DNA of 64,000 nucleotides from Calothrix sp. HK-06 (GTDB lineage Bacteria > Cyanobacteriota > Cyanobacteriia > Cyanobacteriales > Nostocaceae), in contig NZ_MRCD01000017.1 of the NCBI RefSeq assembly GCF_001904745.1, positions 1 to 64,000 of the forward strand. Direction: 5' to 3'. Positions 46,388 to 58,780 of this stretch are shown here, one piece after another. Each line of letters starts with the position of its first letter. Within the stretch, counting starts at the first letter, position 1. Made by a program: the position numbers and the translations under genes. The notes under the pieces are model-generated. The model was not told where the DNA came from and searched no databases. It was given only the letters and a program-made list of their open reading frames with translations.

Positions 46388-46575
46388 AGTTGTGGAGCAG
46401 GTGTCCTCACCTGCCCCCGCATCTGGAACAGGCAAGGATGCCTATTCCACAAGAGGATTAATTTAATTTTTGGGAATATAAATATTTCTTTAAAATACCC
46501 CTTGACTACAGGATACTACGTCATGTAGTATAAAACCTTCGGAAGCTTACCACTCACACAGTAAAAGTGTGCATC

Positions 46576-48396
46576 ATGGCAACCTTAAAAGATGTTATCG
46601 GTTATTTTCGCCCGTACTGGAAGTTTAGTATTTTTAGTATTGTGGCATCTAGTGTTTACGAAGTTATTGATTTAGTAGTACCGTATGCGATAGGTCAAAT
46701 TTTGAATGTACTGTCTAATCAACCGTTAGACAAACCCCTTACAGGATTAATTACATATTTTGCGAACATTACCAATTCTCCGGTAGATAAACCTCTAACT
46801 TTAGGTATATTACTTGGAATGATTTTCTTGGTTACAGTTGTGCGGGCGCCGACACAACCCTGGTTAACTTTATGGTTCCACTGGGATATTGCGTTGAGAG
46901 CTAGACGAGACCAGTCAAAGAGTGCAATAGCAAAAATTCTCACTTTACCCTTAGAATATTACGATGAAAACAACCCTGGACGTATAGCCGGAAGGGTTGC
47001 GCGCGGAGTGTCGAACCATACTTGGACTTATCCTGAAATAGCAGGACAAATGATTCCCAAGCTGGTACGAGTCTTGGGAATTTTTGTTTTTATTCTGTTT
47101 GTTGAATGGCGAATAGCTGTTTTGTATTTAATCTCGTTTGTAGTGATATTAGGATATACGCTAAAAGATTTACGGCGCCTAATTTGGCACGAAGAACGGT
47201 TAGATAAATATATGGAAGACACCGAAAGTCGGACTTCCGAAATTATCAGCAATATCAAAACAGTCAAAGCATTTGCTACCGAACCGGAAGAACTCAAGCG
47301 TCAAGAAACCCGCTTAAACCGTGAGTTTAGAGTTGTAGACGACCGTATTCACAAAGGTTACGTTGTACTAAATACTACGCAGCGCACAATGATTCAATTT
47401 TGCGTATTTGTAGTATTTGGTATGACCCTAGCTGCAACAGTAGTGGGACATATATCGCTTGGTCACTTCATCATGGTTTATACTCTAGCTAGCATGGCTT
47501 ATGCTGAGTTAGAGCCAATAAGTAACCTAGCAGAAATATTTTCCCGTCGTATTAGTTCAATGCTGCGGTTCCACGAGTTTCTTCAAGAACCATCAAGTGT
47601 TGATTCTAATCACATATTAGAGGCTAAGAGACAACCAAATACACCATACAGCTTTACAGGAAAAGTTGAGCTTGCGGGTGTAAGCTTTGGTTACGAAGAA
47701 AATCGTCGCGTATTACACGACATTAATCTATTAATTAAACCGTATGAAACTGTAGCGTTAGTAGGACGTTCAGGTTCAGGTAAATCAACACTGGTTAAAT
47801 TACTACTGCGTTACTTTGACAATTACGAAGGTAAAATTCTAATCGACGGTGAAGACATTCGCAACTTGGATGTTAGTAAATATCGGCGCCGTTTGGCAAT
47901 AGTTCACCAAGAAGTAGACGTGTTTAACGGTACGGTACTCGATAACTTACGTTATGGTAGACCAGAAGTAACCTTTGAACAAGTCGAAGAAGCCAGTCGT
48001 ATTGCACGTTTAGACGAAGTAATCAAAATTCTTCCTAATGGATACTACACCGTAGTTGGAGAACGCGGAGTCAGACTTTCGGGAGGACAACGGCAAAGAC
48101 TGGGTATTGCCCGTGCTTTACTCGTTGAACCCGACGTATTGATATTTGACGAAGCAACATCCAGCTTAGACTACGAATCTGAACGCGCAATTCAATTAGC
48201 AATGCGTTCTTTACAAGGAACCCGCACCACAATTGTAATTGCTCACCGTTTAAGTACAGTCAGGGAGGCAGATAAAATAGTTGTACTTGACCAAGGCAAA
48301 ATTATCGAAGTAGGTAGTCACGAAGAATTACTGCGTCATGGTGGTATTTACCACAGATTACACGCACTCCAAGAAACTGGGGAATTGTTAACTTAA
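46576..48396 (+). CDS. ABC exporter half-transporter (permease-ATPase fusion)
   Basis: 606 residues. The N-terminal six-helix domain spans about 20-310; the ATPase has Walker A VGRSGSGKSTLVKL, Q-loop IVHQEVDVFN, signature LSGGQRQRLGIARAL, Walker B VLIFDEATSSLD and the H-loop IVIAHRL. It is an ABCB/MsbA-like exporter working as a homodimer; drug, lipid or peptide cargo cannot be decided. ATG at 46576 preferred over GTG at 46567. A 17-bp palindrome-like TACTAC...GTAGTA at 46512-46530 precedes it. Confidence 0.92.
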   Translation: MATLKDVIGYFRPYWKFSIFSIVASSVYEVIDLVVPYAIGQILNVLSNQPLDKPLTGLITYFANITNSPVDKPLTLGILLGMIFLVTVVRAPTQPWLTLWFHWDIALRARRDQSKSAIAKILTLPLEYYDENNPGRIAGRVARGVSNHTWTYPEIAGQMIPKLVRVLGIFVFILFVEWRIAVLYLISFVVILGYTLKDLRRLIWHEERLDKYMEDTESRTSEIISNIKTVKAFATEPEELKRQETRLNREFRVVDDRIHKGYVVLNTTQRTMIQFCVFVVFGMTLAATVVGHISLGHFIMVYTLASMAYAELEPISNLAEIFSRRISSMLRFHEFLQEPSSVDSNHILEAKRQPNTPYSFTGKVELAGVSFGYEENRRVLHDINLLIKPYETVALVGRSGSGKSTLVKLLLRYFDNYEGKILIDGEDIRNLDVSKYRRRLAIVHQEVDVFNGTVLDNLRYGRPEVTFEQVEEASRIARLDEVIKILPNGYYTVVGERGVRLSGGQRQRLGIARALLVEPDVLIFDEATSSLDYESERAIQLAMRSLQGTRTTIVIAHRLSTVREADKIVVLDQGKIIEVGSHEELLRHGGIYHRLHALQETGELLT

Positions 48397-53719: not shown

Positions 53720-56272
53720 GTGGCTATACACAAAATGAGTCGAAAGGGACTCAAGATAGCGATATTTTTATTGATACTCGTCTTAACTGCTGTTATTGTC
53801 TCACTACTTTATCCTCGACAACAGCAGATAGTTCAACGCGAAAGTAATTATGCTATTCACGCGCGGCAAGATTTTAACCAACCGAGTTTTTACCCGATTA
53901 CTCCAAATACATCTAATAAGTTATACCGACCGACAGGCGCCTGGGTAGGAAGATTAATTTTGCCTACATCACAGGAAGATAATACAGATTGGGTGTTAAT
54001 GGAAGTTGAACATGCGCCACAGAAAGCACAAAATTTAATTGGAAAGATTGTACGGTTGGAATGGAAAAATGATAAAGATGCTCTTTCTTATGTACAAGCT
54101 GTTGCGCGAGATGTAAATTTCACACCTGATACTATTAAAAGCCAAAAACAAGGTAATATCCACCCGTTTCGTTTAAATGGTGTGAAGAGTGTCTCTGTAT
54201 TACGTTCTTTAGCAGGCGCCCGTCCTCAAGATGATGTTATTGTTACTTTGGATGATGCGACGGTTGTTACTGAAGGTGTAGGAAGAGTAACTTTGCAAAT
54301 CGCGCGTGAGCCTGTTTTAACAACTGGTAGATTTTACGGTTTAGTCAAAATCATTGAGTCAACATCAAAATCTGATTCCCTATATCAAGTAGTACATTAT
54401 AACCCGGCATCAGGAAACTTTGATGGCACTGAAGGCGCCATTCGTATTCCTAAACAAGTTATAGACACACGTAATATACCCAGTTCAACACCGTTATTAA
54501 TTGAGAAATCACCAGTAGGTCAACAAGGGTGGTATATTTACGGAGCTAGAGATAGTAAAGGTATATTTACTGTTCAAGCGCTGGCACCACGTAGTTTATT
54601 CCAAATTCAGCCTGATAAATTAATTACTAACGAAAATATAGCGTTAGGCTATCTTAAAAACCAGCATTGGCAAAACACACCAGCGCAAAAAGGCAAAATT
54701 GACACAGTACTTTTAAATTTCGATGTATTAAAATCAACTTCAAGCCTCCCATACCAAGGCGGGTTAGTTGGATTTCAAAACTCTCCTGCTCTTCTTAATT
54801 CTCCTACTCCCTCCAACCCTTCACAAGGGGGGTTAGGGGAATACCAATGGCAAGAGAACGACAAAGCTATTGTTTTACATTTATTTGGTGGTATTGGTGG
54901 ACGTAAAAAAGAAGCGCTTGGTTTTCCTGCTACTATTACCGGACACTTTGCTTTTGGAATAGCACGAGTCATACGTGATAGTTTCACGTCAGAATTACGC
55001 TTCGATATTAAATATCATCAAATCTATGCCCACAACTCTGATGGAATTATTGCCGGAACTCATACATGGGTAGATTATATGGGTAATTTACAACGTGGTT
55101 GGATGTATACTCGCCCAGTTTCAGATATTATGATTAAATTCGACCCTGTTACAACAGATTATGATTTTGATAGCGTAAAAATATCACCATTAAACGAATT
55201 ACAGCGACAATTACAAATAATGATGGCACGTTACCGTGTTGGTGATGGTACTGGAGGCGCCACAGTATCCCCAGGAACTTCGTGCGGACAAGACTCTGCC
55301 CAAGCACTTTATGCAACAATTACTACAATTAAAAACCAAGTTTCTAATGCACCCCAAATTCAACAATGGTTTGATACACATCCAAACGACCCTCAAACTT
55401 TACGGTTTCGTCAACTAATATTACTCGGCGCCGAACTCGAAAAACAATTGGCGCCATTAGGTATAGTGCGTGCAGATTGGCGCAGCAGTACTAGTTTACT
55501 TGCTGGTACTGGAACTGGTGATAATCAGCCATTTAGAGATGGTAGCATCTGGGCAGGTTTAACGAGTTGGCGAACAATGATGCCTCGACAAATACACGAT
55601 GACCTTGCTCTTTTATTTTTAAAGCATGGCGGCAGTTTACAAGTATTGCGAACCAATCAAATTGGAGGATGGCAAGCTGATATTGCACCATTGGCGCCGA
55701 CAGTATTATTCGGTCAGATAAAAATACCTTATACAGAAATATCTCCACTAGGAATTTTACTCAATCGTGTATTAGCATCTTTAAAAATTCCTACACAACA
55801 AGATTGGTTAGTTCTAGGTACAACACTGTTAGTTTATAGTATTATTGCTCTTCCTATTGGATTGAGATCAGGATTTTTACAATTACAAATCTGGTCTGCT
55901 AACTATACAGATAAGTTTTTATTAATACTACGGTGCTTATTCCTCCCTGCCATCTCAGAAGAATTATTCTTTCGTGTCCTACTAATTCCTCACCCCATTG
56001 AAATTACAAATTGGTTGATTTGGGCACTGTGGGCATTACTAAGCTTAATATTATTCATTATTTATCATCCTCTGAATGCCAGCACCTTTTTCAAGCAAGC
56101 AAATAAAACGTTTTTTAATCGTGTATTTTTAAGTTTAGCTACATTATTAGGAATTGCTTGCACAATTGCGTATGTACTTACAGGCTCTTTATTTATTATA
56201 GTAATTATTCATTGGATTATAGTAGTTGTTTGGTTAATGGCTTTCGCAGGAATGGCAAAATTAAATACGTAG
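53720..56272 (+). CDS. Large membrane protein with C-terminal CPBP (CAAX-like) protease domain
   Basis: 850 residues. An N-terminal helix (residues 10-30) is followed by a long predicted extracytoplasmic region of beta-rich segments, then four or more helices from about 695. The CPBP motifs are AISEELFFRVLL (EExxxR, about 746-752), IIYHPLNAS and VIIHWIIVVVW. Such proteases process membrane or prenylated peptides. An in-frame repeat-derived insertion lies near residues 343-375 (see 54745). The ATG at 53720 is clear. It ends 88 bp before the convergent graspetide ligase gene; a role in that pathway is possible but unproven. Confidence 0.8.
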   Translation: MAIHKMSRKGLKIAIFLLILVLTAVIVSLLYPRQQQIVQRESNYAIHARQDFNQPSFYPITPNTSNKLYRPTGAWVGRLILPTSQEDNTDWVLMEVEHAPQKAQNLIGKIVRLEWKNDKDALSYVQAVARDVNFTPDTIKSQKQGNIHPFRLNGVKSVSVLRSLAGARPQDDVIVTLDDATVVTEGVGRVTLQIAREPVLTTGRFYGLVKIIESTSKSDSLYQVVHYNPASGNFDGTEGAIRIPKQVIDTRNIPSSTPLLIEKSPVGQQGWYIYGARDSKGIFTVQALAPRSLFQIQPDKLITNENIALGYLKNQHWQNTPAQKGKIDTVLLNFDVLKSTSSLPYQGGLVGFQNSPALLNSPTPSNPSQGGLGEYQWQENDKAIVLHLFGGIGGRKKEALGFPATITGHFAFGIARVIRDSFTSELRFDIKYHQIYAHNSDGIIAGTHTWVDYMGNLQRGWMYTRPVSDIMIKFDPVTTDYDFDSVKISPLNELQRQLQIMMARYRVGDGTGGATVSPGTSCGQDSAQALYATITTIKNQVSNAPQIQQWFDTHPNDPQTLRFRQLILLGAELEKQLAPLGIVRADWRSSTSLLAGTGTGDNQPFRDGSIWAGLTSWRTMMPRQIHDDLALLFLKHGGSLQVLRTNQIGGWQADIAPLAPTVLFGQIKIPYTEISPLGILLNRVLASLKIPTQQDWLVLGTTLLVYSIIALPIGLRSGFLQLQIWSANYTDKFLLILRCLFLPAISEELFFRVLLIPHPIEITNWLIWALWALLSLILFIIYHPLNASTFFKQANKTFFNRVFLSLATLLGIACTIAYVLTGSLFIIVIIHWIIVVVWLMAFAGMAKLNT
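54745..54848 (+). repeat. Repeat-derived in-frame insertion in the CPBP gene
   Basis: About 104 bp containing CAAGGCGGGTTAGTTGG and CAAGGGGGGTTAGGGGAATA around a C/T-rich stretch. It encodes PYQGGLVGFQ...PSQGGLGEYQ. It resembles the CCCTTATCAAGGGGGG repeats near 58680 and keeps the frame. Confidence 0.65.
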
Positions 56273-56360
56273 AACACAAAGAAATAATTAGATGTAGAAA
56301 CGTTACATGTAACGTCTCTTCTATGAAGATTTTATTACGTTTACTTTATCGAACGTGATA

Positions 56361-57260
56361 TTAATTCATTAATAATTGTACTAGCTGCTGAGTAATAGGA
56401 AAACCAGTTTGCTGCTCAAAATATATAAACATGGGACTAGGGTTCGCTTCTAAAAAGACATATTCTCCTGTTGGCGCCAATCTCCAATCAATTGCCGTCC
56501 ATTCCAGGTATAATGAGTCAACAATTTCTCGACACTTTTGTTGCAATTCCAAAGGTAACTCCACTGGTATTAATTCAGCATTTACATCTTCGCGAAAATC
56601 TAGTGATTTACTACGAATCTCCGAAGTATATACAGAATCACCAATTACATAACTACGAATATTAGTACCTGGTATATATTCTTGCAAAGTCACAGGAGAT
56701 ATACTCAAAGCTAAATCTAACCGTTTTGGTTCGAGTAATGATTCTGTTAATGTTTGAGTATGGGCGCCACCATAAACAGGTTTAAAAATAGCATTTTGAT
56801 GTGATGCAGCAAATTGTGTAACTTGTTCTGGGTCATTAGTAACTAAAGTTTCTGGAATTTTTATACCTAGTTGTTGAACAGTATATAGTTGTAAAGGCTT
56901 TTCTTTGTGAAATTGATAAGCTTCCCAAGAGTTTACCCATCGCGCGCAAGTAGCTTTCATAAAAGTTCGTAACAAGCTCATTGAATCATTAAATGCAATA
57001 GTTGAGGTATGGGATGCAACCAAAGGAACATTCACACTAGAAAAATTACGCCAGTAAACACTGTGAATATCCGATATGTTAAATTGATAGCGCTCTGACT
57101 TGAAAGTACCGAACTGTGTATTCGGCGCCCAAGACAAACGTAACTGAGTCGGAAATAAATCAGTATCTAAATAGTCTACAGTTGCTCCTGCTTCTGTGAG
57201 AGCATTCTCGATATGTACAGCATGGGCATCCAAGGAATTACCCAAAATTAAAATATTCAT
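56361..57260 (-). CDS. Graspetide ATP-grasp macrocyclase
   Basis: 299 residues from ATG 57260 (MNILILGNSLDAHAVHIENA), after AAAGGA on the coding strand. An N-terminal pre-ATP domain is followed by ATP-grasp elements: VTQFAASHQNAIFKPVYGGA (nucleotide-binding Lys and Gly loop), VTLQEYIPGTNIRSYVIGD, and the Mg-binding tail VFLEANPSPMFIYFEQQTG. These are the signatures of MvdD/PsnB-type ligases, which form ester bonds between Thr/Ser hydroxyls and Asp/Glu carboxylates of a precursor peptide. It is encoded 71 bp downstream of a repetitive (S/T)TxxxxEE precursor. An alternative reading as a general ATP-grasp enzyme is less likely because of this neighbour. Confidence 0.85.
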   Translation of the reverse strand: MNILILGNSLDAHAVHIENALTEAGATVDYLDTDLFPTQLRLSWAPNTQFGTFKSERYQFNISDIHSVYWRNFSSVNVPLVASHTSTIAFNDSMSLLRTFMKATCARWVNSWEAYQFHKEKPLQLYTVQQLGIKIPETLVTNDPEQVTQFAASHQNAIFKPVYGGAHTQTLTESLLEPKRLDLALSISPVTLQEYIPGTNIRSYVIGDSVYTSEIRSKSLDFREDVNAELIPVELPLELQQKCREIVDSLYLEWTAIDWRLAPTGEYVFLEANPSPMFIYFEQQTGFPITQQLVQLLMN

Positions 57261-57331
57261 TATATATAAATCCTTTAAATTACACAGTGTTAAGATTCCC
57301 AACTTTTTAAACAAGTCAGGAATCTAATTTT

Positions 57332-57730
57332 TTATCGGCGAATTATTGAACCTCCTTCCTCACCTACAGCTTGGGTAGTTACCCGACCTCCACCTTCTTC
57401 ACCTACAGCATAAGTAGTGACTTTGGTTCCACCTTCTTCACCCAAAGCTCTAGTGGTTACTTTACCTCCACCTTCTTCACCTACAGCATAGGTAGTTAAA
57501 ATATTTCCACCTTCTTCACCTACTGCGTAAGTAGTGACTTTGGTTCCACCTTCTTCACCTAATGCTCTGGTACTTACTTTACTTCCACCTTCTTCACCTA
57601 CTGCTTGTGTAGATACTGCATCATTAGAAGCTAAAGTCTTATCAACTTCTTTCGTATCAGCATATTGAACATGCACAATCATGCTTTCAAGCTTATGCAG
57701 TTCCATTTGGAATGGATGAACGTAATCCAT
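57332..57730 (-). CDS. Graspetide precursor, plesiocin-like, seven core repeats
   Basis: 132 residues from the ATG at 57730, with TAGGAG upstream. The leader is about 39 residues (MDYVHPFQMELHKLESMIVH and following). Residues 40-132 are seven consecutive 13-residue units of the form (S/T)TxA(V/L)GEEGGxxx, for example TTYAVGEEGGNIL and TTRALGEEGGTKV; two begin with ST. TTxxxxEE is the ring-forming motif of plesiocin-type graspetides, where the hydroxyls and the Glu carboxylates give two nested esters per repeat. The product would be a chain of seven bicyclic hairpins. An in-frame TTG at 57766 is rejected as a start. No transporter is adjacent. Confidence 0.85.
   Translation of the reverse strand: MDYVHPFQMELHKLESMIVHVQYADTKEVDKTLASNDAVSTQAVGEEGGSKVSTRALGEEGGTKVTTYAVGEEGGNILTTYAVGEEGGGKVTTRALGEEGGTKVTTYAVGEEGGGRVTTQAVGEEGGSIIRR
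57338..57613 (-). repeat. 39-bp tandem repeats (graspetide core)
   Basis: Seven copies of a 39-bp coding unit, clearest as CACCTTCTTCACCTA on the plus strand, each giving 13 residues. The repetition is coding: third positions vary and the (S/T)T and EE codons are kept. Confidence 0.9.
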
Positions 57731-57922
57731 ATATATATGTCTCCTAACATAAAATCTTTTTAACAACAGTAAATCAATTGAAATTTGACACAGTGTAAAC
57801 TTTGCTGCATTATTACACAGCAGATAAGGATAAGTACGTAAGTTTTAATTATTTATAACCCTTAATTACAGCACTTGATGTGTTTTTTATATACACAACG
57901 AAATATCCTGATTTCAGAAACC

Positions 57923-57988
57923 AGAAACCCGGTTTCTTTATTAAAATCTTGTAATAAAATAATGATTTTGCTTAGAAACCGGGTTTCT
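57923..57988. repeat. Dispersed hairpin repeat, copy 3
   Basis: AGAAACCCGGTTTCT (57923-57937) and AGAAACCGGGTTTCT (57974-57988), each itself palindromic. The second overlaps the end of the TetR gene and encodes its last residues KKPGF. Confidence 0.8.
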
Positions 57989-58628
57989 TCACACCAGCTA
58001 AGGTAAATGCAATTGCTTCTTGAATATGCTGTTCTAACATCGCTTTACTCAACAGGCGCCGACCTTGAGGATGTTGCTGAATGTTTCCGGCACCTATAAA
58101 GTAAAATAAACAAGTCCCCATGATGTTAATTGCTGCTTGAAAAGAATCGAGTTGTCGAAAGGCGCCACTTGCAACACCCCGGTCTAAAATAGCCATCAAA
58201 GTTTTATCTATATTTAGAGAGCTACTACGCTTATAGTATTTTCCCTGATTTTGCACTGCCTCATGAAACATTATCGTCGGCAGCTTAGGATTTTGCGACA
58301 CACATTCAAGTAATGCAACCAGAAATTTCTCTAAAGCGACTTCTGGCGCCAAATGCTCTAGCGAAGAATCTAATTGTTGAATAACATGTAGTAAATTCGC
58401 GTGCGAACGTTCTAAAACAGCCTGATACAACCCTTCTTTATCTTTGAAGTAGTAGTAAATCATCGACTTTGCCACACCAGTCTTTGCTGCAATTGCTTCT
58501 GTCCTTGCAGCAGTCAAACCATGAATAGCAAACTCCTCTTCTGCTGCTGCCAAAATTACAGCTTGAGTAGCTTCTGAATCTCGAACTTGCTTCGTATTTG
58601 ACTTATCTGGTTTTGCTGCACGTGGCAC
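57972..58628 (-). CDS. TetR family transcriptional regulator
   Basis: About 218 residues from the GTG at 58628 (VPRAAKPDKSN). HTH: AVILAAAEEEFAIHGLTAAR, TEAIAAKTGVAKSMIYYYFK, DKEGLYQAVLE. A longer frame to 58700 starts inside a CCCCCCTTATCAAGGGGGG repeat and is rejected; operator-like sites at 58649 and 58767 would then flank the promoter. Regulated gene: probably the divergent FAD monooxygenase. The C-terminal KKPGF is encoded by a dispersed repeat. Confidence 0.85.
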   Translation of the reverse strand: MPRAAKPDKSNTKQVRDSEATQAVILAAAEEEFAIHGLTAARTEAIAAKTGVAKSMIYYYFKDKEGLYQAVLERSHANLLHVIQQLDSSLEHLAPEVALEKFLVALLECVSQNPKLPTIMFHEAVQNQGKYYKRSSSLNIDKTLMAILDRGVASGAFRQLDSFQAAINIMGTCLFYFIGAGNIQQHPQGRRLLSKAMLEQHIQEAIAFTLAGVKKPGF

Positions 58629-58648
58629 AATTTTATAAAAATCAACAA

Positions 58649-58780
58649 ACTTGTCAGTCAGTATAACCTTTTTACGCTCCTCCAGTCCCCCCCTTATCAA
58701 GGGGGGTTAGGGGGGATCAAAATATTGACAAATTTGCCAAAAACTTGCTTTGATAAATAATAACAAACTGACAAGTCAGT
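58649..58780. promoter_or_regulatory. TetR operator-like sites between tetR and monooxygenase
   Basis: ACTTGTCAGTCAGT (58649-58662) and ACTGACAAGTCAGT (58767-58780), the latter palindromic as ACTGAC-AA-GTCAGT. They share the TGACTGACAAGT core found at many TetR operators. The second site lies 29 bp before the monooxygenase start. Confidence 0.7.

Follow-up and report, generated by a model that had tools for sequence, protein, structure and literature searches.

A predicted graspetide precursor with seven repeated cores and its ATP-grasp ligase in Calothrix sp. HK-06, and related loci in other genomes

A small, repeat-rich gene followed by the gene of an ATP-grasp ligase in Calothrix sp. HK-06 raises the question of whether two genes are sufficient for a graspetide and, if so, what a chain of seven cores would do. 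In this class, Glu or Asp is phosphorylated and then attacked by Ser, Thr or Lys (PMC13097080). We analysed a stretch of 64,000 nucleotides around the pair (hereafter the window), taken from a source genome of 9.99 Mb in 243 contigs. A first-pass annotation had described seven 13-residue (S/T)TxA(V/L)GEEGG units after a 39-residue leader, with an ATP-grasp ligase 71 bp downstream. All of these numbers hold, the precursor ending at 57332 and the ligase starting with the ATG at 57260, and the strand, which had been left unstated, is the minus strand (Table 1).

Table 1. Positions of the predicted precursor, its parts and the adjacent ligase in the window.
Feature	Position	Strand	Remark
Precursor peptide, leader plus seven cores	57332..57730	minus	132 aa; orthologous ORFs in relatives
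Leader, 39 aa, opening MDYVHPFQMELHKLE	57614..57730	minus	HPF unchanged in all 15 precursors aligned
Seven 13-aa core-plus-linker units, (S/T)TxA(V/L)GEEGG plus three residues	57341..57613	minus	followed by RR and the stop
Precursor-ligase gap, 71 bp	57261..57331	minus	no terminator-like site in 56200-58000
Graspetide-type ATP-grasp ligase (macrocyclase), 299 aa	56361..57260	minus	NCBIfam, Pfam, match to PsnB, AlphaFold/Foldseek

The precursor reading frame runs from an ATG at 57730, and its units begin at residues 40, 53, 66, 79, 92, 105 and 118. Units 1 to 4 read STQAVGEEGGSKV, STRALGEEGGTKV, TTYAVGEEGGNIL and TTYAVGEEGGGKV, and units 5 to 7 read TTRALGEEGGTKV, TTYAVGEEGGGRV and TTQAVGEEGGSII. 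All seven fit the TTxxxxEE core, with Ser as the first residue in units 1 and 2, and the third core position (x) runs Q, R, Y, Y, R, Y, Q along the array. Tandem Repeats Finder reported a period of 39 (6.8 copies, 74% matches) together with a period of 117 (87%). The array is not a chance pattern, because [ST]T....EE occurs seven times in the frames of the window (stop-to-stop, at least 100 aa, 19,021 aa in total), which is the number found in the array itself. It is also single-copy, other matches to the precursor in the source genome appearing only at E 0.03 or worse. The precursor matched no solved structure at E up to 1 and no NCBIfam or Pfam family above the cut-off; one relative's precursor gave weak, unrelated structural matches only, and a family search with 15 relatives' precursors returned a single match, to a thiazolyl peptide (E 0.0069). 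A promoter scan of 56200-58000 was uninformative, with two promoter-like sites, both on the plus strand and fewer than in shuffled sequences. By eye, a G/C-run palindrome-like stretch was seen at 58686-58718 and an inverted repeat around AAACCGGGTTTCTT at 57915-57990; these elements are possibly dispersed intergenic repeats.

Based on its sequence matches and its predicted fold, the ligase can be placed in the graspetide-synthetase ATP-grasp family. The NCBIfam models TIGR04187 (3.7e-48), MvdD (4.7e-36) and MvdC (5.1e-33) all matched below their respective cut-offs (114.5 bits vs. 425 for MvdC, 124.6 vs. 475 for MvdD), and Pfam gave the MvdD pre-ATP-grasp domain and RimK above cut-off. Its best solved relative by sequence was PsnB, the plesiocin synthetase (7drm; 7.8e-26 for the ligase alone, 7.9e-39 with the family profile), followed by MdnC (5ig9; 2.9e-21 and 4.7e-36, respectively), and a Foldseek search with the AlphaFold model (pLDDT 85) placed MdnC (1.6e-26) marginally ahead of PsnB (8.3e-26). 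Residues K160, R202, D258, R260, E271 and N273, the catalytic residues among them, were invariant in all 19 aligned ligases, comprising that of the window and 18 sequences 55 to 94% identical to it. In trees, PsnB fell on the same side as the window family against MvdC/MvdD (80/84; 100/100 in a second tree) and outside the clade of the window ligase family (98/99; 97/96), on a long branch flagged by the program. Ligases of the MvdC and MvdD types are encoded on other contigs of the source genome (C123:623-1567 and C11:67-945), which therefore probably also makes a microviridin.

The TTxxxxEE motif defines the plesiocin group (group 2) of graspetides, and the core spacing of thuringinin is different from that in the window. 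Plesiocin (PsnA2/PsnB) shares its tandem TTxxxxEE repeats with the window array but has four units rather than seven and GDPSAG linkers (PMC12291112) where the window has GGxxx; the window leader has no GG ahead of the first core, and the two ligases are only about 28% identical. Microviridin (MvdC/MvdD, group 1) has the ATP-grasp fold and family in common with the window ligase and, as multi-core AMdnA illustrates, may hold several cores in one precursor (PMC5934393). The window locus nevertheless falls outside group 1: its precursor lacks the PFFARFL leader and the TxKxPSD core, one adjacent ligase stands where microviridins have a pair, and the MvdC and MvdD cut-offs are far from reached. 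Thuringinin would be alike in that a single ligase makes its repeated bicyclic units (PMC8939145, PMC12291112). Corallotide (group 15) and groups 34 and 35 of a 2026 survey likewise have large precursors in which motifs are repeated, although corallotide carries KxxxD isopeptides and hydroxylation, unlike the window core (PMC13097080). The leader motif Phhx(1,2)h, as given in Makarova 2022 (PMC8939145), is matched only in part (PFQM). One mark of the graspetide class, an adjacent precursor with a leader and conserved donor and acceptor residues, is present at the locus. The claim that no member with this core had been described stands for open-access titles and abstract openings, in which, among the matches listed, we found no description of this core, of these cyanobacterial arrays or of the fused forms; the loci may already sit in a numbered graspetide group of earlier surveys or their supplements.

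The nearest named relatives, judged by the ligase, are Calothrix and Dulcicalothrix, and seven-unit arrays are kept in three other genomes of these genera. Besides the window's own, ten of 60 genomes searched had full-length ligase orthologues (at least 57% identity), while any ATP-grasp match at 1e-10 was present in 28 of the 60 (own included); four of the distant matches, when scanned with NCBIfam, were MvdC or MvdD. The species collection contributed 15 loci, 13 with full or nearly full-length and two with truncated ligases. Surroundings are conserved within the Calothrix-type genomes and likewise within Acaryochloris; between families the precursor-ligase pair is held in common and little else, except for one extra cluster that links Iningainema and Fischerella muscicola. 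The 15 aligned precursors divide by leader. In ten it is of the type M.HPF.L...GG; most of these carry few cores, and motifs of other kinds, TKAWFEQGG or TLTAVGPNESGESGG for instance, are frequent among them. The remaining five, with the window's among them, have the type M.Y(V/I)HPFQ(M/L)ELH(K/Q)LE and no GG before the first core. Behind the GG-less leader, Calothrix types have seven units, Iningainema tapete has one degenerate unit followed by six, and locus L015 has nine, with TT alternating with IT. The corresponding ligases form one clade (97/86, 8 rows; 100/99, 6 rows), which also takes in the ligase of Fischerella thermalis, whose array is split over two contigs.

Different kinds of damage in related genomes indicate repeated loss of the pair. 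At loci L051 and L053, in sister genomes, a deletion of ~0.9 to 1.0 kb, corresponding to window positions of about 57790-56885 and 57868-56870, takes out the precursor gene and the start of the ligase gene (about 125 to 130 codons); the two sets of boundaries lie close together, and there is an 8-base overlap at the L051 junction. Upstream of the ligase of Fischerella muscicola, all that was found is a leader-like stretch that runs into stops, and genome G024 holds a 60%-identical ligase fragment with three stops. Such damage and loss in close relatives mean that the locus is dispensable.

A dedicated transporter or protease beside the pair was considered and rejected: of six window proteins scanned, only an 850-aa neighbour (53720-56272) was protease-like (Rce1-like/CPBP). 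This gene is kept in all six Calothrix-type loci, and because these include the two with truncated ligases we interpret it as genus synteny and not as part of the cluster. The TetR-type gene at 57972-58634 and the FAD monooxygenase beyond it cluster only among the Calothrix-type loci (5 of 6). A predicted ABC-exporter-like ORF lies at 46567-48396, about 8 kb from the pair. Group 2 graspetides are described as showing high co-occurrence with an NHLM-type peptidase transporter (PMC13097080). This is a group tendency rather than a strict definition, and the window locus departs from it, with its GG-less leader and none of the 16 C39-peptidase matches of the source genome on its contig.

The array itself suggests how it grew and what has been held constant. 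Units 1-3 and 4-6 are identical at 98 of 117 bases and units 2-4 and 5-7 at 93 of 117, compared with 167 of 234 for neighbouring units; because blocks shifted by three units match better than neighbours do, the array probably grew by duplication of a three-unit block. Codons were then compared over the 21 (mutually dependent) unit pairs. At codons 2, 4 and 6-10 all 45 differences are synonymous, whereas codon 3 (x) has 2 synonymous and 16 amino-acid differences, the most amino-acid changes of the core. The respective figures are 5 and 10 for codon 1 (S/T), 1 and 10 for codon 5 (V/L), and 1 and 18, 1 and 14, and 6 and 11 for the three linker codons. The precursor of PCC 7103 is separated from that of the window by 14 synonymous and 10 amino-acid differences, the latter falling at position 3 (two), position 5 (one), in the leader (one) and in the linkers (six).

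Further, core statistics were drawn from 68 ORFs, each with at least one strict core and with near-identical orthologues left in. When A4, a hydrophobic residue at position 5 and G9-G10 were fixed and positions 1-3 and 6-8 left free, 246 of 267 matches had both (S/T)T and EE (T2 in 260, E7 in 262 and E8 in 255), and position 3 held L 111, Q 39, M 25, K 25, E 22, Y 21 and R 13 times, among others. With the alternative anchor (A4, position 5 and G6 fixed), both motifs were present in 252 of 293 matches. A scaffold that is fixed apart from a free recognition residue would produce such a pattern, although positions 1 and 5 and the linkers are free too.

Cumulatively, the family of the ligase, the recurring linkage of precursor and ligase, the constraint on the motif and the match to PsnB bear out, at the level of sequence, the annotation's reading of a plesiocin-like graspetide. 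We consider it likely that the two genes make up a minimal graspetide cluster in which the leader, through its HPF motif, would dock on the ligase, and that the product would be a polyvalent serine-protease inhibitor. The ligase would phosphorylate both glutamates of each TTxAhGEE core and link them through nested esters, two per unit, to the hydroxyls of the two Thr/Ser residues, so that up to 14 waters would be lost (calculated monoisotopic mass 13730.76 for the untagged precursor with Met, 13478.61 when fully modified) and seven bicyclic hairpins would result, with flexible GGxxx linkers between them; the hairpin topology is taken by analogy from plesiocin. Residue x in the hairpin loop would set the target, and the chain Q, R, Y, Y, R, Y, Q would therefore combine trypsin-like (R) and chymotrypsin-like (Y) specificity in one molecule, which may be released or exported by factors encoded elsewhere. 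Bifunctionality has reportedly been introduced into plesiocin, going by the title of one study, and the native array, in which x is Q, R or Y, resembles a naturally occurring molecule of this sort. Precedents for the individual steps come from several papers: plesiocin is tetravalent and carries two esters in each repeat (PMC12291112), PsnB forms two lactones per repeat on PsnA2 (PMC9484694) and modifies the four repeats distributively (PMC5934393), and plesiocin inhibits serine proteases with a potency that rises with the number of cyclised motifs (PMC13097080).

How widely such arrays occur was seen by scanning genomic DNA for TTxA(F/L/I/M/V)GEEGG, with the pattern read backwards as control. 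Two partly overlapping samples were used. In the phylum-wide one, 20 of 386 genomes had the core pattern; in the one drawn from the order, 43 of 388 did. The reversed pattern was present in none of the rows of either scan. From match genomes, 34 regions were chosen and fetched (L096 and L097 having first been found via the ligase), and in 27 of them a graspetide-type ligase lies within about 1.8 kb of the precursor; the combination of GEEGG repeats and an adjacent ATP-grasp gene, for which the annotation had proposed a database search, does recur. The 27 include two contig-edge fragments (L130 and L132, the latter at only 23.9 bits) and one ligase split over two frames (L136). Of the seven regions that lack a ligase, L090, L093, L139 and L143 have the precursor on or close to the end of a contig, and L095 is a probable chance match. 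L142 (Fischerella thermalis) and L133 (G460) contain precursors with GG-type leaders and no ligase in the fetched region; these may be modified by a ligase encoded elsewhere. Across the family, precursors have 1 to 14 units, so the annotation's description of the array as longer than the few-repeat type is right against four-repeat plesiocin and fails within the family, where relatives reach 9 to 14 units and seven repeats are unexceptional.

Several of these precursors are long or joined to other domains. Locus L087 (5413-8132; G156:C96), which adjoins a ligase of the window family, encodes 587 aa comprising an HPF leader, Calx-beta domains (Pfam 2.5e-34) and seven TTLALGEEGG-type cores, and L106 is its contig-edge relative. 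L127 (5296-7079; G620:C101) has 14 cores, 12 strict and two TTLAYGEE, with GG mostly replaced by proline-rich linkers and with an N-terminal domain that has no HPF leader; its adjacent ligase is divergent (100 bits), and the same genome carries the 11-core locus L138. In L098, L099 and L119-L122, 7 to 11 cores are followed by a C-terminal domain; with L130-L132 and L138 added, the range is 6 to 11 strict cores before a conserved domain of ~180 residues. Four such proteins gave no Pfam match above cut-off, and the model of the domain (pLDDT 57.8) was too poor for a structure search. We do not claim RTX/type I secretion for it, the one indication being a lone sub-threshold Pfam match (E 0.025) among five proteins scanned, including L118, which is of a different build; ten neighbours scanned from several loci contained no secretion genes. 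In small genomes of another family (f42), loci L084, L085, L086, L091, L092 and L094 hold 1 to 12 strict cores (12 in L084, 7 in L085) beside a ligase of the wider family, several of the precursors being long, with helical-looking spacers and side motifs such as TYALGENGD. The photosynthetic reaction-centre family was absent from all nine distant genomes searched (f42 and f43) and present in G156 and in the source genome (G000). Carriage by viruses or plasmids was likewise rejected: no relatives were found in viral contigs, and all 69 matches in plasmid records were below 60% identity, the ten listed at 27-31%. The window locus is a variant within an already known class, of which the spread of the family and its protein-fused members are an interesting extension, the fused forms being more surprising than the seven-unit array.

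The same loci bear on other readings of the array. It is possible, though in our view unlikely, that the chain is modified as proposed and then cut after its EEGG sites, which would yield a cocktail of seven separate bicyclic peptides instead of one polyvalent molecule. The GG that closes every unit and the C39-type domains of the source genome are consistent with cutting, as is the description of class II microviridin precursors with several cores, with or without GG separation (PMC7823629). However, five of five Acaryochloris precursors end exactly in GEEGG with nothing after it, and since GG is kept where nothing follows, it looks like part of the hairpin; the linkers of L127 and the absence of a C39 match from the window's contig also argue against cutting.

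We give somewhat less credence still to the view that the modified array is no inhibitor but a polymer with a structural or binding role, such as a matrix or surface protein made stiff by its ester rings. Such a role would suit the relatives in which these cores adjoin Calx-beta domains or precede other C-terminal domains, and corallotide, a graspetide with five repeats, is described as collagen-like (PMC13097080). The window protein, however, has no extra domain, and its amino-acid variation falls mainly on the loop position of a core that is otherwise conserved, which is unexpected for a purely structural repeat; moreover, all graspetides characterised by 2022 were protease inhibitors according to Makarova 2022 (PMC8939145). 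We regard it as very improbable that the ligase has a different substrate and that the repeats simply form an acidic, metal-binding or disordered protein of an ordinary kind. Repeats rich in EEGG could bind cations; against this reading, however, the two genes stand side by side again and again in surroundings that are otherwise mostly different, and the window's leader type tracks a ligase clade.

With the polyvalent inhibitor retained as the preferred reading of the window locus, a wider proposal can be made, which we hold only tentatively. In a system spread over the phylum, one kind of ligase would write arrays of bicyclic-ester hairpins into whole proteins, and the window locus would be a stripped-down form of it. 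The arrays would exist as free chains, placed after Calx-beta domains, placed before a C-terminal domain or as 12- to 14-core proteins with helical-looking or proline-rich spacers, in cyanobacteria and in relatives without reaction-centre genes; they would diversify by unit duplication while the loop residue varies, and one polypeptide could thereby come to hold several inhibitor specificities.

Our findings suggest that the window peptide belongs to a widespread family of protease inhibitors built as chains, with some members forming part of larger proteins. As a two-gene system with a natural seven-unit array and differing loop residues, the Calothrix locus opens graspetide multivalency and mixed specificity to study without engineering. 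Its relatives suggest that graspetide chemistry may act on proteins of 300 to 600 residues, beyond small peptides. If this is true, graspetides on the scale of proteins would widen what counts as a RiPP product and raise the questions of how ester-laced proteins are exported and what they target.
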